Origin: Sulfurimonas sp.
Lineage (GTDB): Bacteria; Campylobacterota; Campylobacteria; Campylobacterales; Sulfurimonadaceae
Reading direction: 5' to 3'
Length of the DNA stretch: 64,000 nucleotides
NCBI RefSeq assembly: GCF_028714975.1
Contig: NZ_JAQTLH010000003.1
Span: 124,001 to 188,000 of the forward strand
Part shown: in pieces, positions 43,773 through 54,529 of the stretch
How positions within the stretch are numbered: the first letter of the stretch is position 1
How the letters are laid out: every line of letters starts with the position of its first letter
Notes under the pieces: generated by a model
The model's input: only the letters and a program-made list of their open reading frames with translations
Told to the model about the DNA's origin: nothing
The model's database searches: none
Made by a program: the position numbers and the translations under genes

Positions 43773-45083
43773 TTATTTAGCACCGACTTTTAACAATACA
43801 ACATTAATTGTTTTAAGAAAAATAACAAAATCCATCCACAACGACCAATTTTGTATATACCAAACATCCAAGTCGACTCTTTTTTTAAAAGTCAGCTCAT
43901 TTCGCCCGCTAACTTGCCATAAACCAGTCAGTCCCGGTTTTACTTTGAGTATTATTTCTTCGTTGTTTTTACCTATGTCTCCCATTTCAATTAACATATA
44001 GGGTCTAGGTCCGATAAGATTCATATCGCCCTTTAGTATATTATAAAACTGCGGCAGCTCGTCAAGCGATGTTTTTCTTAAAAATCTACCGACTTTTGTA
44101 ATCCGCGGGTCATTTTTATATTTATGAAACTTCTCATAGTACTCCACCTCATCAGGGTTTTGCAAAAGATATTTGTCCAAAATATTTTGGCTATTTTCAT
44201 ACATTGTGCGATACTTATAACACTCAAATACTTCAGAGTTTTTGCCGAGTCTTTGCTGCTTAAAAAAAGTGTCTCCGCTTGAATCCATTTTGATAAAGTA
44301 GCGAATAAAAAGATGCAAAATCAGAGCAAAAGGGAAAAGCATAATGATGATTGTTTTTTCAAAAAAATACTTTATAAATATATTTTTATAGTTTAAGAGC
44401 CTATTTTCTATATGCAGAGCCGAAAATCTTATATTTGAAAAATCGACTATCGTAGTATGCGAAAAATCTAAATTATCCAAATATGGAATGAGATATATAT
44501 CTTTAGTGTTGTGCGAAAACTCTCTTATACTCTCTTGAAGCCTGTTTATCTCAAAACCTCTCGAAGAAACTATAACAATATCGTAGTTCTCATCATTAAC
44601 CTTATATCCAAAATACCAATTTTTCGTTATTTCACTGCATATGATATCGTAGTTCTCTTCATCAGCCATAACTCTGACTTTGATTTTAAAAAAATCAAAC
44701 GAAAAAAGAAATTTTTTAAATAATCTTTTAAAAAAAAGAGTGGCAAATATGGCTATAACAAAAAAATTTAGTAAAAAAGGCACTGAATATACATCAGATA
44801 TTTTAGCAAGAGATATAACCGTAAAAACAACAAAAAAGGAGAAGAAAAACACTTTGAGTATTTTTTTGGCGTCACCCCAAAAATCATATCTGATTACATA
44901 TATTTTTTGGGTAGCAAAAGAGGATAAAATAAAGATAGGTATCCAAATATAAGAAGCTATATCTACACCTTGGCTCTGCGTGAACCGTGCTGCTTCCAAA
45001 GAGAGATATAGCACTAAGAAGTCCGCACTTATAAGCAAAAACGCAAGCAAATAGAGCGAAGGTTTAAATTTAAAACTGTTCAT
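43773..45083 (-). CDS. Polyprenyl glycosylphosphotransferase (WbaP/WcaJ type)
   Basis: Starts a surface glycan by moving a sugar-1-phosphate onto undecaprenyl phosphate. The 436-residue protein has four N-terminal membrane helices, a Rossmann-like middle domain (~125-240), another helix (IIIMLFPFALILHLFIRYFI), and the conserved catalytic C-terminus: YKYRTMYENSQ, LRKTSLDELPQFYNILKGDM, LIGPRPY, VKPGLTGLWQVSGRNELTFK. The sugar cannot be deduced; galactose or glucose phosphate is common. It is the last gene of a minus-strand series with a glycosyltransferase and GDP-sugar genes. Confidence 0.92.
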   Translation of the reverse strand: MNSFKFKPSLYLLAFLLISADFLVLYLSLEAARFTQSQGVDIASYIWIPIFILSSFATQKIYVIRYDFWGDAKKILKVFFFSFFVVFTVISLAKISDVYSVPFLLNFFVIAIFATLFFKRLFKKFLFSFDFFKIKVRVMADEENYDIICSEITKNWYFGYKVNDENYDIVIVSSRGFEINRLQESIREFSHNTKDIYLIPYLDNLDFSHTTIVDFSNIRFSALHIENRLLNYKNIFIKYFFEKTIIIMLFPFALILHLFIRYFIKMDSSGDTFFKQQRLGKNSEVFECYKYRTMYENSQNILDKYLLQNPDEVEYYEKFHKYKNDPRITKVGRFLRKTSLDELPQFYNILKGDMNLIGPRPYMLIEMGDIGKNNEEIILKVKPGLTGLWQVSGRNELTFKKRVDLDVWYIQNWSLWMDFVIFLKTINVVLLKVGAK

Positions 45084-45091
45084 AAAGCAGA

Positions 45092-46180
45092 TTATACTTC
45101 AATACTATTTATAAACTCTTTTATCTCATCTTTAAATCTTTGCGTAGCATAACGCTCGGTGTTTTTAGATATATCTGCTAGATTAAACTTCAACTCTTCA
45201 AACTTATAAACTGCATTTACGATATCTTCTTTTGTCTGTTTTTCAAAATGCACTCCGTTTACTCCCTCTATGACGGTTTCAGCCGTAGCGCCGCCGTCAA
45301 GTGCTATAACCGGGGTTCCGCATGCCATAGCCTCAATCGGTACTATGCCGAAATCTTCAACGGCAGCATAAACAAACGCTTTTGCTCTTTGCATATAATC
45401 TATCAAAATTTTATCTTCGCAAAAACCCAAAACAGATATATTTTCTTTTGCAATCTTTTTTATAGCCTCATACTCTTCGCCGCTGCCGATAACAAAGAGT
45501 TTTTTATCGCTCATCTCATTAAATGCTTCGACTATGAGTTTTGTTTTTTTATAAGGAACAAGCCTTGAGGCGGTTAGATAAAAACCCTCTTTGTCCGTTT
45601 TAAAAGTAAAATTTTGCGTATCGACCGGCGGATATATAACAACCGAATCTCTGTTATATGTTCTTTTAATTCTCTCTTGCACGAAAATTGAATCGGCTAT
45701 AAAATAATCCACTCTGTCTAATGTTTTTATATCCCATTTTCTTATATATTGCAGTGTTAATTTTAAAATAATTTTTTTTATGCCTTTTATCTCTTTTGTG
45801 TACTCGTCATAGAGGTCCCAAGCATAGCGTATCGGTGTATAACAGTATGAGATATGGAGCTGATTTTTATTTTTTTTAACGCCCTTTGCGACTGCCCATG
45901 ATGAACTAATAATCAAATCATACGAACTGACATCCAAACTCTCTATCGCTTTTGGAAAAAGAGGAAAGTAGCTTCTAAAATGTTTTTTTGCAAAAGGAAG
46001 TTTTTGGATAAACGATGTTTTGGCAAACCTGCCGCCGATAACCGTTTCTCTATCATTATCGCTTAAAAAATCTACAAGAGAGAAAATATCAGCATTTGGG
46101 TAAATATCTACCAAAGCTCTTAAAACTTTTTCTGCTCCGGCATTTGTTACAAGCCAGTCGTGAACTATAGCTACTCTCAA
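45092..46180 (-). CDS. GT4-family glycosyltransferase (mannosyl/rhamnosyl candidate)
   Basis: A 362-residue GT-B retaining glycosyltransferase. The donor-binding motif is EDFGIVPIEAMACGTPVIALDGGA (first Glu of the E-x7-E motif at EDF, second at IEA). The N-terminal HDWLVTNAGAEKVLRAL resembles WbaZ/WbdA-type mannosyltransferases. Position next to gmd and a GDP-4-keto-sugar reductase suggests a GDP-mannose or GDP-6-deoxyhexose donor; this is an inference. The start is TTG at 46180. Confidence 0.82.
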   Translation of the reverse strand: MRVAIVHDWLVTNAGAEKVLRALVDIYPNADIFSLVDFLSDNDRETVIGGRFAKTSFIQKLPFAKKHFRSYFPLFPKAIESLDVSSYDLIISSSWAVAKGVKKNKNQLHISYCYTPIRYAWDLYDEYTKEIKGIKKIILKLTLQYIRKWDIKTLDRVDYFIADSIFVQERIKRTYNRDSVVIYPPVDTQNFTFKTDKEGFYLTASRLVPYKKTKLIVEAFNEMSDKKLFVIGSGEEYEAIKKIAKENISVLGFCEDKILIDYMQRAKAFVYAAVEDFGIVPIEAMACGTPVIALDGGATAETVIEGVNGVHFEKQTKEDIVNAVYKFEELKFNLADISKNTERYATQRFKDEIKEFINSIEV

Positions 46181-46199
46181 TTATAATGTCTTTTCATAT

Positions 46200-49416
<3,217 letters not shown>

Positions 49417-49427
<11 letters not shown>

Positions 49428-50715
49428 TAAACGCCCTGCCTATCATATCGGTAAGAGGTTTTACAAGATAACTAAGCATAGTTCTCTCCGAAATTTTTAT
49501 CATAACTTCCGCAGGCATACCCGATACTAGCTCAAAACCATACTCTGCTATTTGCTTCTCTCCGCTTTTTGTCACTTCGATTTTTGCTTCATAATACGGT
49601 GCGCCGGTTTTTTCATCCCTAAAGCTATCAGCTGAGACATGTACTACTTTACCCTCTATAACTTGAGTATGACGCGTGTTAAAAGCTGAAAATCTTATAT
49701 CTGCCATAAGCCCGACTTTAACTTTGTCGATATCCGTTGTTTGAACTTGAGCTACAACTATAAGCTTTGATTTTTGCGGTATTATTTGCAATATATCTCT
49801 ACCCGGAGGAACAACGCCTCCAATCGTATGCAAGCTTAAACCTACAACCGTCCCGTCAATTGGGGAAACTATATCTGTTCTTCCAAGAGTATCTTCCATA
49901 GAAACTATTTTTGATTGCAGGTCAAAAAGCATGGATTTTGCTTTTACCAAATCGTTTAGAGTCACTTTTGCAAACTCTTTTTCTCTTAATAGCTGCTGAT
50001 TTTTAGTCTCGTTTATAGCTTCATAAAGCTTTGCTATCTCAGAAGCAGTTTGAGAAATATCTCCCTCAATCATATTTTTTTCTCTGCTTAAATCTCTTAT
50101 CTTTAGCTTATCGACCAACTTCTCTTTATAAAGCTTTTCCCACTCTAAAATCTCTTCGCTTATCGAACTCATTCTGCTCTTTTTAGCTTCCATTAAAGAT
50201 TTTAAACCGCTTATCTGATTTTCAAGCTGCACAACTCTGTTTTGAGAGATTATTTTTTCCTCTTCTATACTCTTTTTTGTTTCAAAAAATATACTGTTTT
50301 GCTCTTTTTTGATACTTTCATTCTTAAGTTCGTTAGGATAAATAACACTGTTTTGTTCATCTCTTTGAGCTACGAGTCTCGCATAAAGAGCCGATGCATC
50401 GTCATATTGGGTTTTAAAGATATCAAGCTGGCTTTTTATATTTATATCTTTTAGCTTTAAAAGAATATCGCCTTTTTTTACCTCATCACCGTCTTTTACA
50501 TATATGCTCTCTATTACTCCGCCCTCTAAATGCTGAAGTGTTTTTTTATCCAAATCGGCCGAAATCTTACCGATTGCCACCGAAGATTCGGCAAGCGGAG
50601 CAAAAGCCATCCAACCGCCAAATACTCCAAAGAGTAAAAAAATCACTCCAAGCCCAAACCCGATAACCTTAGAATCATTTGTAGACGGCATTTTTATATC
50701 TCTATTTTCGCTCAT
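49417..50715 (-). CDS. Type I secretion adaptor (HlyD/SapE-like)
   Basis: Membrane-fusion protein of 432 residues. A short cytoplasmic N-terminus leads to one membrane helix (VIGFGLGVIFLLFGVFGGWMAF), then LQHLEGGVIESIYVKDGDEV (lipoyl), a long coiled coil (~110-290), and the conserved HlyD C-terminal block IVSPIDGTVVGLSLHTIGGVVPPGRDILQI, given here in parts. The final segment SGMPAEVMIKISERTMLSYLVKPL is typical of PrtE/SapE adaptors. Confidence 0.93.
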
Positions 50716-50724
50716 AATTTTTCC

Positions 50725-52524
50725 TTAATTTTCAGGCTTGCTGAGTGATATTTTAGGCGCACTTTGCGGCTGTTGCTGACTTGCTTGTGTCTGAGCTTGC
50801 TGCTGCTGTGCCGCTTGAGCTTGTTGTGCATTTTTTGCCAAATGAGCTAAAACATCATTTGAATTTCCATACAATTCTAAAGCTCCCTGATTGATTAGGG
50901 CTATTTTATTTGTCACTTGAAGTATGCTCGGCCTATGCGTAATTATTATCACGGTAGAACCTATCTTTTTTAAGTAATTAATAGCATTTACAAGTCCGAT
51001 TTCCCCTGCATCGTCTAAGTTTGAGTTAGGCTCATCCAAAACAACTAAAACAGGATTGTTATAGAGTGCTCTAGCAAGCCCTACCCTTTGTCTTTGACCG
51101 CCGGAGAGTGCTAAACCGCCTACACCGATTTTACTATCGTAACCCTCGGGAAGTCTGAGTATCATCTCATGAACGCCTGCTCTTTGTGCGGCTTCTACAA
51201 CTTTTTGAGAGTCAATTTCACCGAATCTTGCTATATTTTGACTAATAGTTCCTTCAAAAAGTTCTATATCCTGCGGTAAATAGCCTATGTAATTTCCAAG
51301 TTCTTGTTTGTCCCATTGGTAAATATCCGCTTTGTCAAGTCTGACTTTTCCTGCTGCAAGCGGCCAAAGTCCTAAAATGACTCTGGCAAGAGATGATTTC
51401 CCTGCCGCACTCGGTCCGATTATACCGACTACATCACCCTTTTGAATCATCATAGAGATGCCGCGAAGAGATGGCTGAGATGCACCCGGAGGCGCTACAA
51501 CGGCACCTTCAATTAAAATTTCGCCTTGCGGAGCAGGCAGTTTCATATACTCTTTATCTTTTGGAAACTCTTTTAAAAGTCCGTCAAGTTTTTGATATGA
51601 AGCTCTAGCATTGCTAAACCCTTTCCAACTGCCGATCATTAAATCAAGCGGAGCCAATGCCCTACCCATAATGATAGAACCTGCAATCATCATACCCGGA
51701 GACAACTCCGCTTTAATGGCAAGATATCCGCCGAGTCCAAGGATAAGGGATTGAAAAAGCATACGCAAACTCTTAGATGCGTTTGACCAGATTCCGGCGC
51801 TGTTGCTTGCATCATTTTGAGCATTTAAAAAACCGAAATATCGCTCTTCCCATATCTTTCTAATATTCTCTTTCATACCCATAGCATGAACGATTTCAGC
51901 ATTTCTTAGATTTGCTTCTACAAACGCCGATGAAGATCTGCTAAGGTTATTCGCTTCACTGAGTTTCTGTTTTGTAGTATATTCGTTTGCTATAGTAATA
52001 CCGACTAAAATAATCGCGGCGAATATGGCAAAGTAACCAAAAAGAGGGTGAAACATAAAAAGAACTGCTATATATATAACCATCCACGGTGCATCAAAAA
52101 AAGCAAAAAGACCGTTTCCTGTCATAAACTGTCTGACTTGCGTAAGATCGCTTAAGGGAATCGAAGATGCCTTTCCGGGATATTTTTGTGCTAGTTCAAA
52201 TACGGAATCAAATACTCTTTGGCTTAGTAAACTATCCATCTTATTTCCAACTTTTACAAGCACTCTTGATCTTACAACTTCTAAAAGCGCCATTACTAAA
52301 AATAAGAATACCACTATACCCGTAAGCATTATTAGCGTATCCTGACTTCTGCTTGCCATAACTCTATCGTAAAGCTGTAACATGTACAATGACGGAACAA
52401 GCATAAGTATATTTATAACTAAACTAAAAAAGCCAACCATTATAAATGATTTTTTAGATTTTAATATAGCTTCTTTTAATTCAGAAAAATCCCCTTTTTG
52501 TCCATTAGGCGGTTTCTTTGCCAT
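50725..52524 (-). CDS. Type I secretion ABC transporter (PrtD/SapD-like)
   Basis: Inner-membrane ABC exporter, 599 residues, without an N-terminal C39 peptidase-like domain, so it belongs with PrtD/RsaD/SapD exporters. A six-helix membrane domain (~30-310) is followed by the ATPase: Walker A GPSAAGKSS, signature LSGGQRQRVGLARAL, Walker B VLVVLDEPNSNLD, and THR switch. The last ~40 residues form a Gln/Ala-rich tail (AQQAQAAQQQQAQTQASQQQ), an unusual addition. No RTX substrate gene is next to it. Confidence 0.94.
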   Translation of the reverse strand: MAKKPPNGQKGDFSELKEAILKSKKSFIMVGFFSLVINILMLVPSLYMLQLYDRVMASRSQDTLIMLTGIVVFLFLVMALLEVVRSRVLVKVGNKMDSLLSQRVFDSVFELAQKYPGKASSIPLSDLTQVRQFMTGNGLFAFFDAPWMVIYIAVLFMFHPLFGYFAIFAAIILVGITIANEYTTKQKLSEANNLSRSSSAFVEANLRNAEIVHAMGMKENIRKIWEERYFGFLNAQNDASNSAGIWSNASKSLRMLFQSLILGLGGYLAIKAELSPGMMIAGSIIMGRALAPLDLMIGSWKGFSNARASYQKLDGLLKEFPKDKEYMKLPAPQGEILIEGAVVAPPGASQPSLRGISMMIQKGDVVGIIGPSAAGKSSLARVILGLWPLAAGKVRLDKADIYQWDKQELGNYIGYLPQDIELFEGTISQNIARFGEIDSQKVVEAAQRAGVHEMILRLPEGYDSKIGVGGLALSGGQRQRVGLARALYNNPVLVVLDEPNSNLDDAGEIGLVNAINYLKKIGSTVIIITHRPSILQVTNKIALINQGALELYGNSNDVLAHLAKNAQQAQAAQQQQAQTQASQQQPQSAPKISLSKPEN

Positions 52525-52555: not shown

Positions 52556-52582
52556 GTCATTGCGAGCGAAGCGCAACAATCT
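52556..52582. repeat. REP-like palindromic element
   Basis: The segment GTCATTGCGAGCGAAGCG (start of the element) has the TTGCG/CGCAA stem with GAGCGAAG in the loop, plus flanking GTCATTG and CAATCT. This is the widespread bacterial REP type associated with REP-associated tyrosine transposases. It begins 31 bases after the start of the ABC gene's upstream gap and ends four bases from the stop codon of the RAYT-SapC gene. I saw no second copy in the window. Confidence 0.7.
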
Positions 52583-52585
52583 AAA

Positions 52586-53965
52586 TTAACTCTGTCTTTT
52601 TTGCGCTATTTCAAAAAGAGTCCCGATATTGTTTAATGATTTTAGATGTGCATCTATCATAGTCATAATCCCTTTTCTAACCCAGTCTGCTAAGATATCA
52701 TCGCTTAGTGCGTTAAGTTTTTCTCTATCTACGACTTTAAACCCGTTTACCAAAACTTTTTTCTCATCACCCTCACCTACTGAAATCTCTCTATCTTCAA
52801 GGATTCCGCTTTGTGAAATAATTTTAACTACATTTTGAGTAACGCTCATCTGAGTATCGTAAGAAGTTAAAAAAGTAATAGCATGTTCTAATGTTTCAGA
52901 CTTTTCGCCGTCTTTTTTAAAAAGCTGTTTGCCTTTTGATTTTGAAAAGAGTGAAGAGTCTTCATCTATAAGAATCACTTTTTGTTGTGGATTTTCTTTC
53001 GTACTTGCCAAAGAAAACGGATACTTTCTTAAGTATGACGGAACATAAGAAGTTATCCATTTTCCGTCCGCAGTTATTGCCAAACTATCCGAACCCAAAG
53101 AGACAACTGCTATTAAAGATGCACTTTCATCTGCCGTAAAAACTATAGGAAATAGTTCACCTACTTGTGAAACTTCACTAGCTAATACAGGTATATGAGT
53201 TACAGACTTTGCAAAATTTAAATCTGTCAATGGATTTATCTTTAATTCTTTGTGTTTTTCTTTATCTAAGATTGCTAAATTTTTGTACATTTTTTTTCCT
53301 TTTTCAATATGATCTTTTTTGGGACGACCTCTCTCTTTTAGAGATAGACTCATTCCTACTATTATCTCAAGATTTCTTATAAACTCTAAACTGCCGGTTA
53401 TGCTCTGTTTTTCTAAACATGTCGCTATAAACTCACTTTTATCTGTTTTAGAGTTAAAGAGTGCCGAGTATTTTTGTACTCTTTGCTCATCCGTAAATCC
53501 CAACTTTTTATACAAACCATGATAAGAGACGAGATCATCTTTTTTGTTATATAGATTTTTATAAATACTGCTAAAGAGGTGTTCTCTTGGAGCGAGCTTC
53601 TCTATATAAATCATAACATCAAAAAGAAATTTATCATTTTCTACAAGCGAAGATTTATATCTGCCTTCCCAAATAGTTCCTGTGCGATTATACTTTTTGT
53701 TAAAATAACCTACATATTTTCTACCCAAGCTTTGCATAAATTTTGACAAAGCATCTTCATTTGACGGAGTAGCCAAAAATTCAAAATAGTGCGGCATTAA
53801 AACATAAGCATGAACAGCCAAATCATTATTTGCACTAGACTCTTTTAAAATAGTCGTAAATGCTCTATAATCCGATTCATCTCTAAAAATAGCAAGCTTA
53901 TCCAAACTCTTTAGTATCACATGCTGTGAAGAATCTTTAACAAAAATTCTAACTTTTCGTGCCAA
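52586..53965 (-). CDS. RAYT transposase-SapC fusion protein
   Basis: A 459-residue protein of two halves. Residues 1-~220 are an REP-associated tyrosine transposase domain: QHVILKSLDKLAIFRDESDY, AYVLMPHYFEFLA, RTGTIWEGRYKSSLV, and a Tyr120 in the position of the catalytic tyrosine (MIYIEKLAP). The metal-binding HxH of the HUH motif (usually MPNHFHLL) is changed to Y60-F-E62. The half ends in ERGRPKK, the usual RAYT C-terminus. Residues 226-459 are a complete SapC domain: THIPVLASEVSQVGELFPIVF in parts, ADGKWITSYVPSYLRKYPF, LIDEDSSLF, GFKVVDREKLNAL. SapC proteins belong to S-layer secretion operons. The start is TTG at 53965 behind AAGGA. Sixty-one bases upstream of the ABC exporter. Confidence 0.88.
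   Translation of the reverse strand: MARKVRIFVKDSSQHVILKSLDKLAIFRDESDYRAFTTILKESSANNDLAVHAYVLMPHYFEFLATPSNEDALSKFMQSLGRKYVGYFNKKYNRTGTIWEGRYKSSLVENDKFLFDVMIYIEKLAPREHLFSSIYKNLYNKKDDLVSYHGLYKKLGFTDEQRVQKYSALFNSKTDKSEFIATCLEKQSITGSLEFIRNLEIIVGMSLSLKERGRPKKDHIEKGKKMYKNLAILDKEKHKELKINPLTDLNFAKSVTHIPVLASEVSQVGELFPIVFTADESASLIAVVSLGSDSLAITADGKWITSYVPSYLRKYPFSLASTKENPQQKVILIDEDSSLFSKSKGKQLFKKDGEKSETLEHAITFLTSYDTQMSVTQNVVKIISQSGILEDREISVGEGDEKKVLVNGFKVVDREKLNALSDDILADWVRKGIMTMIDAHLKSLNNIGTLFEIAQKRQS
53290..53302 (-). promoter_or_regulatory. Internal ribosome site and ATG for SapC domain
   Basis: On the minus strand AAAGGA (53302-53297) is followed by six bases and an in-frame ATG (first base 53290, codon 226). 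This is where the SapC half begins (MYKNLAILDKEKHKEL). A separate 234-residue SapC could therefore be made from the same message. Confidence 0.55.
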
Positions 53966-54076
53966 ATCAGTTCCTTAACTTACTTTCAAACTGAATTGTA
54001 TGCAAATAGAACTTAAGAGTCAATTAAATGACTCCGACACTATTTTTATATTTTTAAATAGGTGCCATAGTCATAA

Positions 54077-54529
54077 TCAAAAATGATAAGATATTCCCCA
54101 TCTAATATAAGGTATAGCCGATTTTATCACTTGAAATATTTGCGACAGCATAAAACCGTCCAAATCAGCCTTTGCCGTTGTACTTTTAGAGCTGAGTGTT
54201 AAAATAGTATGCTTTGAGTTTATATCAAAAGAGAAATTAACCTCTAGCAAAAGATCATCGTTTGTTCTTAAGAGTTCTAAATTTACATTGTCTGTTTTTG
54301 ACATAACTTTATCATTAGTTTCGATTTGAGGAGTTGCTTCAAAATCGACGATGCCGTAATGTCTAGCCATAAACTCTTCGGCAGTAGGAACTAGATTTAA
54401 GATAAAATTTCTCGTTATCATAAAATCGACTCTGTTATAAATATCTTGATAGTTTACGACAAGCCTCAATCTGTCTTCAAGCTCATCATAAATCGGTGTG
54501 AATGTTTTTGCCGTAATATTTTTCTTCAT
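54077..54529 (-). CDS. Hypothetical protein upstream of sap-like operon
   Basis: A 150-residue soluble protein that I do not recognise. It has no signal peptide or membrane helix. The first part has the pattern FTPIYDELEDRLRLVVNYQD followed by RVDFMITRNFILNLVPTAEE; the second half is rich in beta strands (LLLEVNFSFDINSKHTILTL). It is transcribed in the same direction as the RAYT-SapC gene, 111 bases upstream, with a small stem (GAGTCA/TGACTC, 54017-54034) in between. It could belong to the secretion locus. Coding potential is good: it is the only long frame in this stretch. Confidence 0.7.
   Translation of the reverse strand: MKKNITAKTFTPIYDELEDRLRLVVNYQDIYNRVDFMITRNFILNLVPTAEEFMARHYGIVDFEATPQIETNDKVMSKTDNVNLELLRTNDDLLLEVNFSFDINSKHTILTLSSKSTTAKADLDGFMLSQIFQVIKSAIPYIRWGISYHF

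Follow-up and report, generated by a model that had tools for sequence, protein, structure and literature searches.

RAYTs (REP-associated tyrosine transposases) are kept by their hosts as single-copy genes without a clear cellular job, and to our knowledge SapC has no assigned function. What, then, does a RAYT do when it shares one reading frame with SapC in the first gene of a type I secretion operon? The question is raised by a gene in a 64,000-nucleotide stretch of a Sulfurimonas sp. genome (the window), in which the genes, the palindrome and the promoter element described below all lie on the minus strand. The gene (52586..53965) encodes a 459-residue protein, as indicated by the ORF call, Pfam and 26 full-length homologues. 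It begins with TTG at 53963-53965; TTG is the start codon in 25 of the 26 fusion genes and GTG in the other, whereas, of 16 free RAYT genes of Campylobacterota that were checked, 14 begin with ATG.

The RAYT half of the protein, residues 1-225 (53291..53965), is made up of a Y1_Tnp core at residues 11-122 (Pfam, E 5e-7, above cut-off) and a RAYT C-terminal tail with an RGRPKK end. Because residues 1-217/223 are covered by alignments to free proteobacterial RAYTs, this half is a whole RAYT, with the tail to RGRPKK included. Its fold matches 4er8 (a RAYT with a REP hairpin) and 2xm3 (Foldseek, E about 1e-6) as well as IS200/IS605 transposases, and the fusion protein scores 33.4 bits against the NCBIfam REP_Tyr_transpos equivalog, below the cut-off of 80. 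The SapC half, residues 226-459 (52586..53290), matches the full-length SapC profile at residues 233-450 (Pfam PF07277, profile 1-220 of 220, E 3e-60). In the predicted structure of the fusion the RAYT core is usable and the SapC half has a pLDDT <50 over most of its length. Pfam and the free-RAYT alignments thus bear out the sequence-only reading, which had proposed an in-frame RAYT and a complete SapC in one open reading frame. Its description of the active site also holds, with the HxH replaced by Y60-F-E62 and Tyr120 and the RTGTIWEGRYKSS block remaining. In the alignments the HUH metal-binding motif of the window protein is degenerate (Y60-F61-E62, 53780..53788), and the catalytic tyrosine position is occupied by Tyr120 (53606..53608), a residue that varies across the fusion family (His in G070, Phe in G486). 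Near the end of the RAYT tail, an AT-hook-like GRPK (residues 213-216, 53318..53329) is invariant in 13 of 13 aligned fusions. The fusion is the sole Y1_Tnp protein in the genome that contains the window.

Downstream of the fusion lie adjacent genes for a PrtD-type ABC transporter (50725..52524; TIGR01842, above cut-off), an HlyD-type adaptor (49417..50715; TIGR01843, above cut-off) and a TolC-type outer membrane protein (48117..49427; PF02321, with TIGR01844 below its cut-off). The fusion therefore heads a type I secretion operon, as had been suggested. These genes are succeeded by four sugar-nucleotide, glycosyltransferase and sugar-transferase genes (43773..48108), the usual followers of the operon. 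On the other side, a 150-aa protein without a known family (54077..54529) adjoins the fusion in most Sulfurimonas-type loci; it has no Pfam family, and its predicted structure has no match in the PDB at E 0.001. The order 150-aa protein, RAYT-SapC, ABC, HlyD, TolC recurs in most contigs with enough room, and in G094 a member of the 150-aa family adjoins an unfused SapC. An Arcobacter plasmid (CP146529.1, L189) carries an unfused SapC between a 25.7-kb gene and ABC and HlyD genes, with no RAYT and no palindrome of the kind described below, indicating that the RAYT is not essential for every SapC.

The full-length fusion is present in 26 genomes or contigs, mostly from Sulfurimonas and Campylobacterales, and gene order and fusion are kept across these homologues. 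No RAYT-SapC fusion was found among plasmid records, none of which covers 80% of the query. Purifying selection acts on both halves, with dN/dS of about 0.05-0.3: in the pairs compared, the ratio is 0.05-0.20 for the RAYT core, 0.08-0.29 for the RAYT tail and 0.04-0.23 for SapC, with dS near saturation in the more distant pairs. A RAYT half that is a neutral, slowly decaying passenger is scarcely credible. The loss of the HUH motif, an in-frame TAG within the RAYT half in G004 and a second, broken copy of the fusion gene in G041 would fit such a passenger; the low dN/dS contradicts it, as do the dozens of RAYT columns that are invariant among 13 aligned sequences and the retention of this half across several families. 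The 26 homologues beside type I secretion genes and the low dN/dS exclude two outcomes that the sequence-only reading had named against itself, namely a fusion found in no other genome and a RAYT half in neutral decay. The fusion is neither an artefact nor a decaying relic, and the idea of a captured RAYT that lost its HUH site and kept its fold is upheld by the purifying selection and the conserved operon.

The HUH motif is absent from 23 of the 26 fusions and intact only in two outlying members, G316 (MPNHVHILCTP, plus IESNPVRTG) and G100 (MPDHIHLLCTP); G131 has its second His only. In the RAYT tree all fused proteins fall on one side of a branch (support 89/73), where G100, G131 and G316 group together, with weak support (88/47), as sister to the HUH-less clade (97/90). 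In the SapC tree the fused SapC sequences all belong to one clade (98/96), inside which an unfused operon SapC from G100 is nested; this SapC is best read as having lost its RAYT half. Both trees are compatible with a single fusion event, with moderate basal support; the loss of HUH is best placed after fusion, in the Sulfurimonas-type clade that includes the window.

If the RAYT half no longer cuts DNA, does it still recognize a DNA element? The sequence-only reading had pointed to the REP at 52556-52582. This repeat exists (CATTGCGAGCGAAGCG / CATTGCGAGCGNAGCG) and has 37 copies in the genome of the window, but it does not qualify as the target: matches occur in only 6 of 89 genomes searched, with none in most fusion-bearing genomes, and no copy of it is found in the gap before the ABC gene at any other fusion locus examined. 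We therefore rejected the local REP as a conserved partner; it is a lineage-specific repeat that is not conserved at the fusion site. The link between the RAYT half and a DNA element is nevertheless supported, with a palindrome in the promoter region in place of the REP.

Repeats were also seen in clusters elsewhere. In the genome of the window, the REP CATTGCGAGCG[A/C]AGCG is clustered at contig C1:319514-335870 (L183). Of its 16 copies there, 15 share one orientation, and they lie among surface-polysaccharide, DUF4214-like and toxin-antitoxin-like genes. Near genes resembling type I secretion substrates, at C1:340808-343397 (L184) and at C10:9161-12707 of G039 (L185), are arrays of roughly 500-bp units, each with a GGGTGTCAGGCACC repeat in one orientation and most with one small ORF of 75-106 aa. 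An unfused, HUH-intact RAYT gene stands at the end of the array in G039, and in G061 and G073 the GGGTGTCAGGCACC repeat is located at about -67 to -90 of unfused HUH-intact RAYT genes. The genome of the window has kept the array and has no free RAYT.

The promoter-region element is an imperfect palindrome, ATGACTATGGCACC-19 nt-AGTGTCGGAGTCAT (54028..54074; arms at 54061-54073 and 54028-54041, AT-rich spacer). In the alignment of upstream regions it lies just upstream of the predicted operon promoter, for which TACAAT at 53995..54000 is the putative -10 element. We searched the genomes of 149 relatives with the pattern ACTMTGRCAC-N16-26-GTGTCRKAGT, using the reversed pattern as a control. The palindrome occurs in 12 of the 149 genomes, at one place in each and always before a RAYT-SapC gene, and the control gave 0 matches. 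The match in G041 is at the second, broken fusion copy, and two matches in G064 stem from a single palindrome that the pattern fits on either strand. At loci annotated from the RAYT start, the left arm is at -105 to -108. The right arm, GTGTCRGAGT, is found at -74 to -77 from the start codon in nearly all fusions (the exceptions being G371 at -70, G131 at -79 and JAMOOP at -84) and is not recognisable in G486 or before Campylobacter-type genes. In G316 the palindrome is perfect. In G100 it remains at the promoter of the operon with the unfused SapC, and a RAYT(HIH)-SapC gene diverges beside it, an arrangement suggestive of a regulator and its target. At surface-protein genes the palindrome turned up only in one shared, divergent intergenic region of G064. 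TGGCAC was also considered as a sigma-54 promoter and rejected, since it lacks the -12 GC and is replaced by TGACAC in several loci.

The position of the right arm suggests where it came from. The terminal repeats of TIR-flanked RAYTs are reported to have GGGGWSAS in common and to keep an about constant distance to their transposase gene (PMC3733652). Among the free RAYT genes that we found, the four closest, from Iodobacter, Pseudoalteromonas and two Skermanella (34-39% identity), have GGGGTCAGAGT or GGGTCAGAGT at -72 to -79 as a terminal inverted repeat; the Iodobacter form is GGGGTCAGAGC, and the Iodobacter and Pseudoalteromonas genes have inverted repeat copies downstream too. The 9-mer GGGTCAGAG arose by chance in <=10 of 20,000 shuffles of the upstream 110 nt. 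Since GTGTCRGAGT of the fusions occupies the same place, it is most simply read as an inherited RAYT terminal repeat. The fusion genes showed no second terminal repeat on their downstream side. Elsewhere, free RAYTs of Paraburkholderia (L187) and Caballeronia (L194) have lost HUH (DAVQ/EAVQ), lack the GGGTCAGAG repeat and are possibly another domestication, and Klebsiella aerogenes LR134122.1, from 537667 onward (L196), encodes a further fusion, in which an HUH-less RAYT domain is linked to a histidyl-tRNA-synthetase-like domain (PF13393), annotated hisS_3.

The fusion, the selection on both of its halves, the loss of HUH, the single-copy palindrome and its match to free-RAYT repeats lead us to propose that RAYT-SapC autoregulates the secretion operon, a nuclease-dead transposase having been recruited as the DNA-binding domain and the terminal repeat of that transposase as the operator. 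We give this reading a probability of about 0.55. In an ancestor of several Campylobacterota, a free, TIR-flanked RAYT, a single-strand HUH transposase, would have become fused in frame with SapC, the first gene of the operon, bringing with it the upstream terminal inverted repeat that today stands just before the operon promoter. The Sulfurimonas-type clade would then have lost HUH, with the fold and the surface around FMQSLGRKYVGYFNKKYNRTGTIWEGRYKSS remaining under selection. Today the RAYT half most likely serves as a DNA-binding domain and would hold the palindrome, perhaps aided by the AT-hook-like GRPK on the AT-rich spacer; RAYT-SapC would thereby control its own operon, and through SapC transcription could respond to the state of the exporter. 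The parts that we infer are the binding, the sign of regulation and the coupling to export.

The geometry of the palindrome admits two readings. The spacer is 17-21 nt long and mostly 19 nt, a near-constant length that would set the arms about three helical turns apart. Pairing between the arms includes conserved wobbles and one frequent mismatch; as most pairs are invariant or wobble, covariation is weak and gives no proof of a hairpin. The element may thus act as a hairpin or as a double strand, and both readings stand. RAYTs of known activity bind irregular folded single-stranded hairpins (PMC8266576), which counts against our proposal because the candidate site lies in promoter DNA. The same preference favors a different role, in which RNA or single-stranded hairpins of the operon transcripts are the ligand of the RAYT half and its action is post-transcriptional, aided by the unusual TTG start that sets the fusions apart from free RAYTs. 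As the palindrome comes after the stop codon of the 150-aa gene in most loci, read-through RNA could carry it. The palindrome, however, precedes the predicted -10 box, the gene upstream is transcribed divergently in G064, G038 and G073, where read-through is impossible, and no conserved leader hairpin or other fold was seen near the start codon in the upstream-region alignment. Such a transcript-binding role is therefore quite unlikely.

Can the proposed autoregulator be traced further, to the SapC of S-layer operons? Six genomes of another family (f11), which we call Campylobacter-type for their sapCDEF order and surrounding surface-protein genes, encode SapC proteins of 364-380 aa from the aligned start, with an N-terminal part of 143-160 aa. 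This part has nothing above the Pfam cut-off and was detected by profile comparison only, with hhalign scores of 78.8 against fused RAYT halves (E 3e-12) and 58.8 against free RAYTs (E 1e-8). Controls scored much lower (column-shuffled profiles <=20.4, reversed 23.5, an unrelated SapC profile 12.6), and the N-terminal domain is thus very probably a strongly decayed RAYT, one that is still present despite a near-total loss of sequence identity and from which HUH is absent. Upstream of sapC, the half-site [CT]TGGCACTTTT occurs once per locus in 6 of 6 cases, five at 69-85 nt before sapC or the aligned start and one at ~240 nt, compared with 2 occurrences in 1.13 Mb of other loci. A published dRNA-seq study of C. 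fetus describes the promoter region that separates sapC from its neighbouring sap gene as conserved (PMC3887049). We found no mention of a RAYT in the portions consulted of two C. fetus genome papers. The wider proposal, that a secretion-coupled autoregulator arose from a dead HUH transposase and its repeat and that the C. fetus-type SapC is a decayed descendant of the fusion, is one that we advance tentatively, as somewhat short of probable.

The sap locus of C. fetus is invertible, and in two of the Campylobacter-type loci (L143 and L144) surface-protein genes lie in opposite orientations on both sides of sapCDEF, an arrangement that we liken to it. This likeness, together with the intact HUH of G316 and G100, raises the idea that the fusion acts in DNA rearrangement of surface-protein genes, such as inversions of an S-layer locus. 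We regard this as very unlikely, given the loss of HUH in 23 of the 26 fusions and its absence from Campylobacter-type SapC and, outside the one shared intergenic region in G064, the absence of the palindrome from surface-protein genes.

The persistence of the Campylobacter-type domain at almost no sequence identity is also what would be expected of a scaffold. The RAYT half might accordingly serve the secretion apparatus structurally or as a protein-protein module, for example by docking to the ABC transporter, with the palindrome read by another regulator; that the whole palindrome is single-copy and stays with the unfused SapC in G100 agrees with this. A module of this kind would leave unexplained why the arm matches free-RAYT terminal repeats in both sequence and distance, why the palindrome accompanies RAYT-SapC alone and why the basic motif block typical of RAYTs is among the retained segments, and we judge it unlikely. 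Autoregulation of the operon through the palindrome remains the reading that we prefer.

In a literature search, we found no paper linking SapC with a transposase. A published classification of RAYTs dropped long fusion proteins (PMC6006769), and such cases may have been missed for this reason. The locus presents a RAYT locked into a secretion protein together with what appears to be its own terminal repeat, in a graded series from an intact HUH to a strongly decayed domain. It provides a case in which the domestication of a transposase into regulation can be tested, and a concrete hypothesis on SapC, a part of S-layer export operons.

Three known systems invite comparison. The C. fetus sapCDEF operon shares the order SapC-ABC-HlyD-TolC, nearby surface-protein genes and a half-site upstream of sapC, but the RAYT half of Campylobacter-type loci has decayed beyond the Pfam cut-off. 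RAYTs (TnpA-REP), and especially the TIR-flanked 'TIRYT', resemble the fusion in fold, motif block, complete length and a GGGTCAGAGT-like repeat upstream at an equal distance from the start; the fusion differs from them in having lost HUH, in being joined to SapC and in having one single-copy upstream site by an operon promoter. TldR, a nuclease-dead regulator derived from TnpB, is likewise a transposon nuclease that has lost its catalytic site and is kept by selection beside surface-structure genes. Its fold is unrelated, however, and it uses a guide RNA that is absent in RAYT-SapC, for which the regulatory role is a proposed one.
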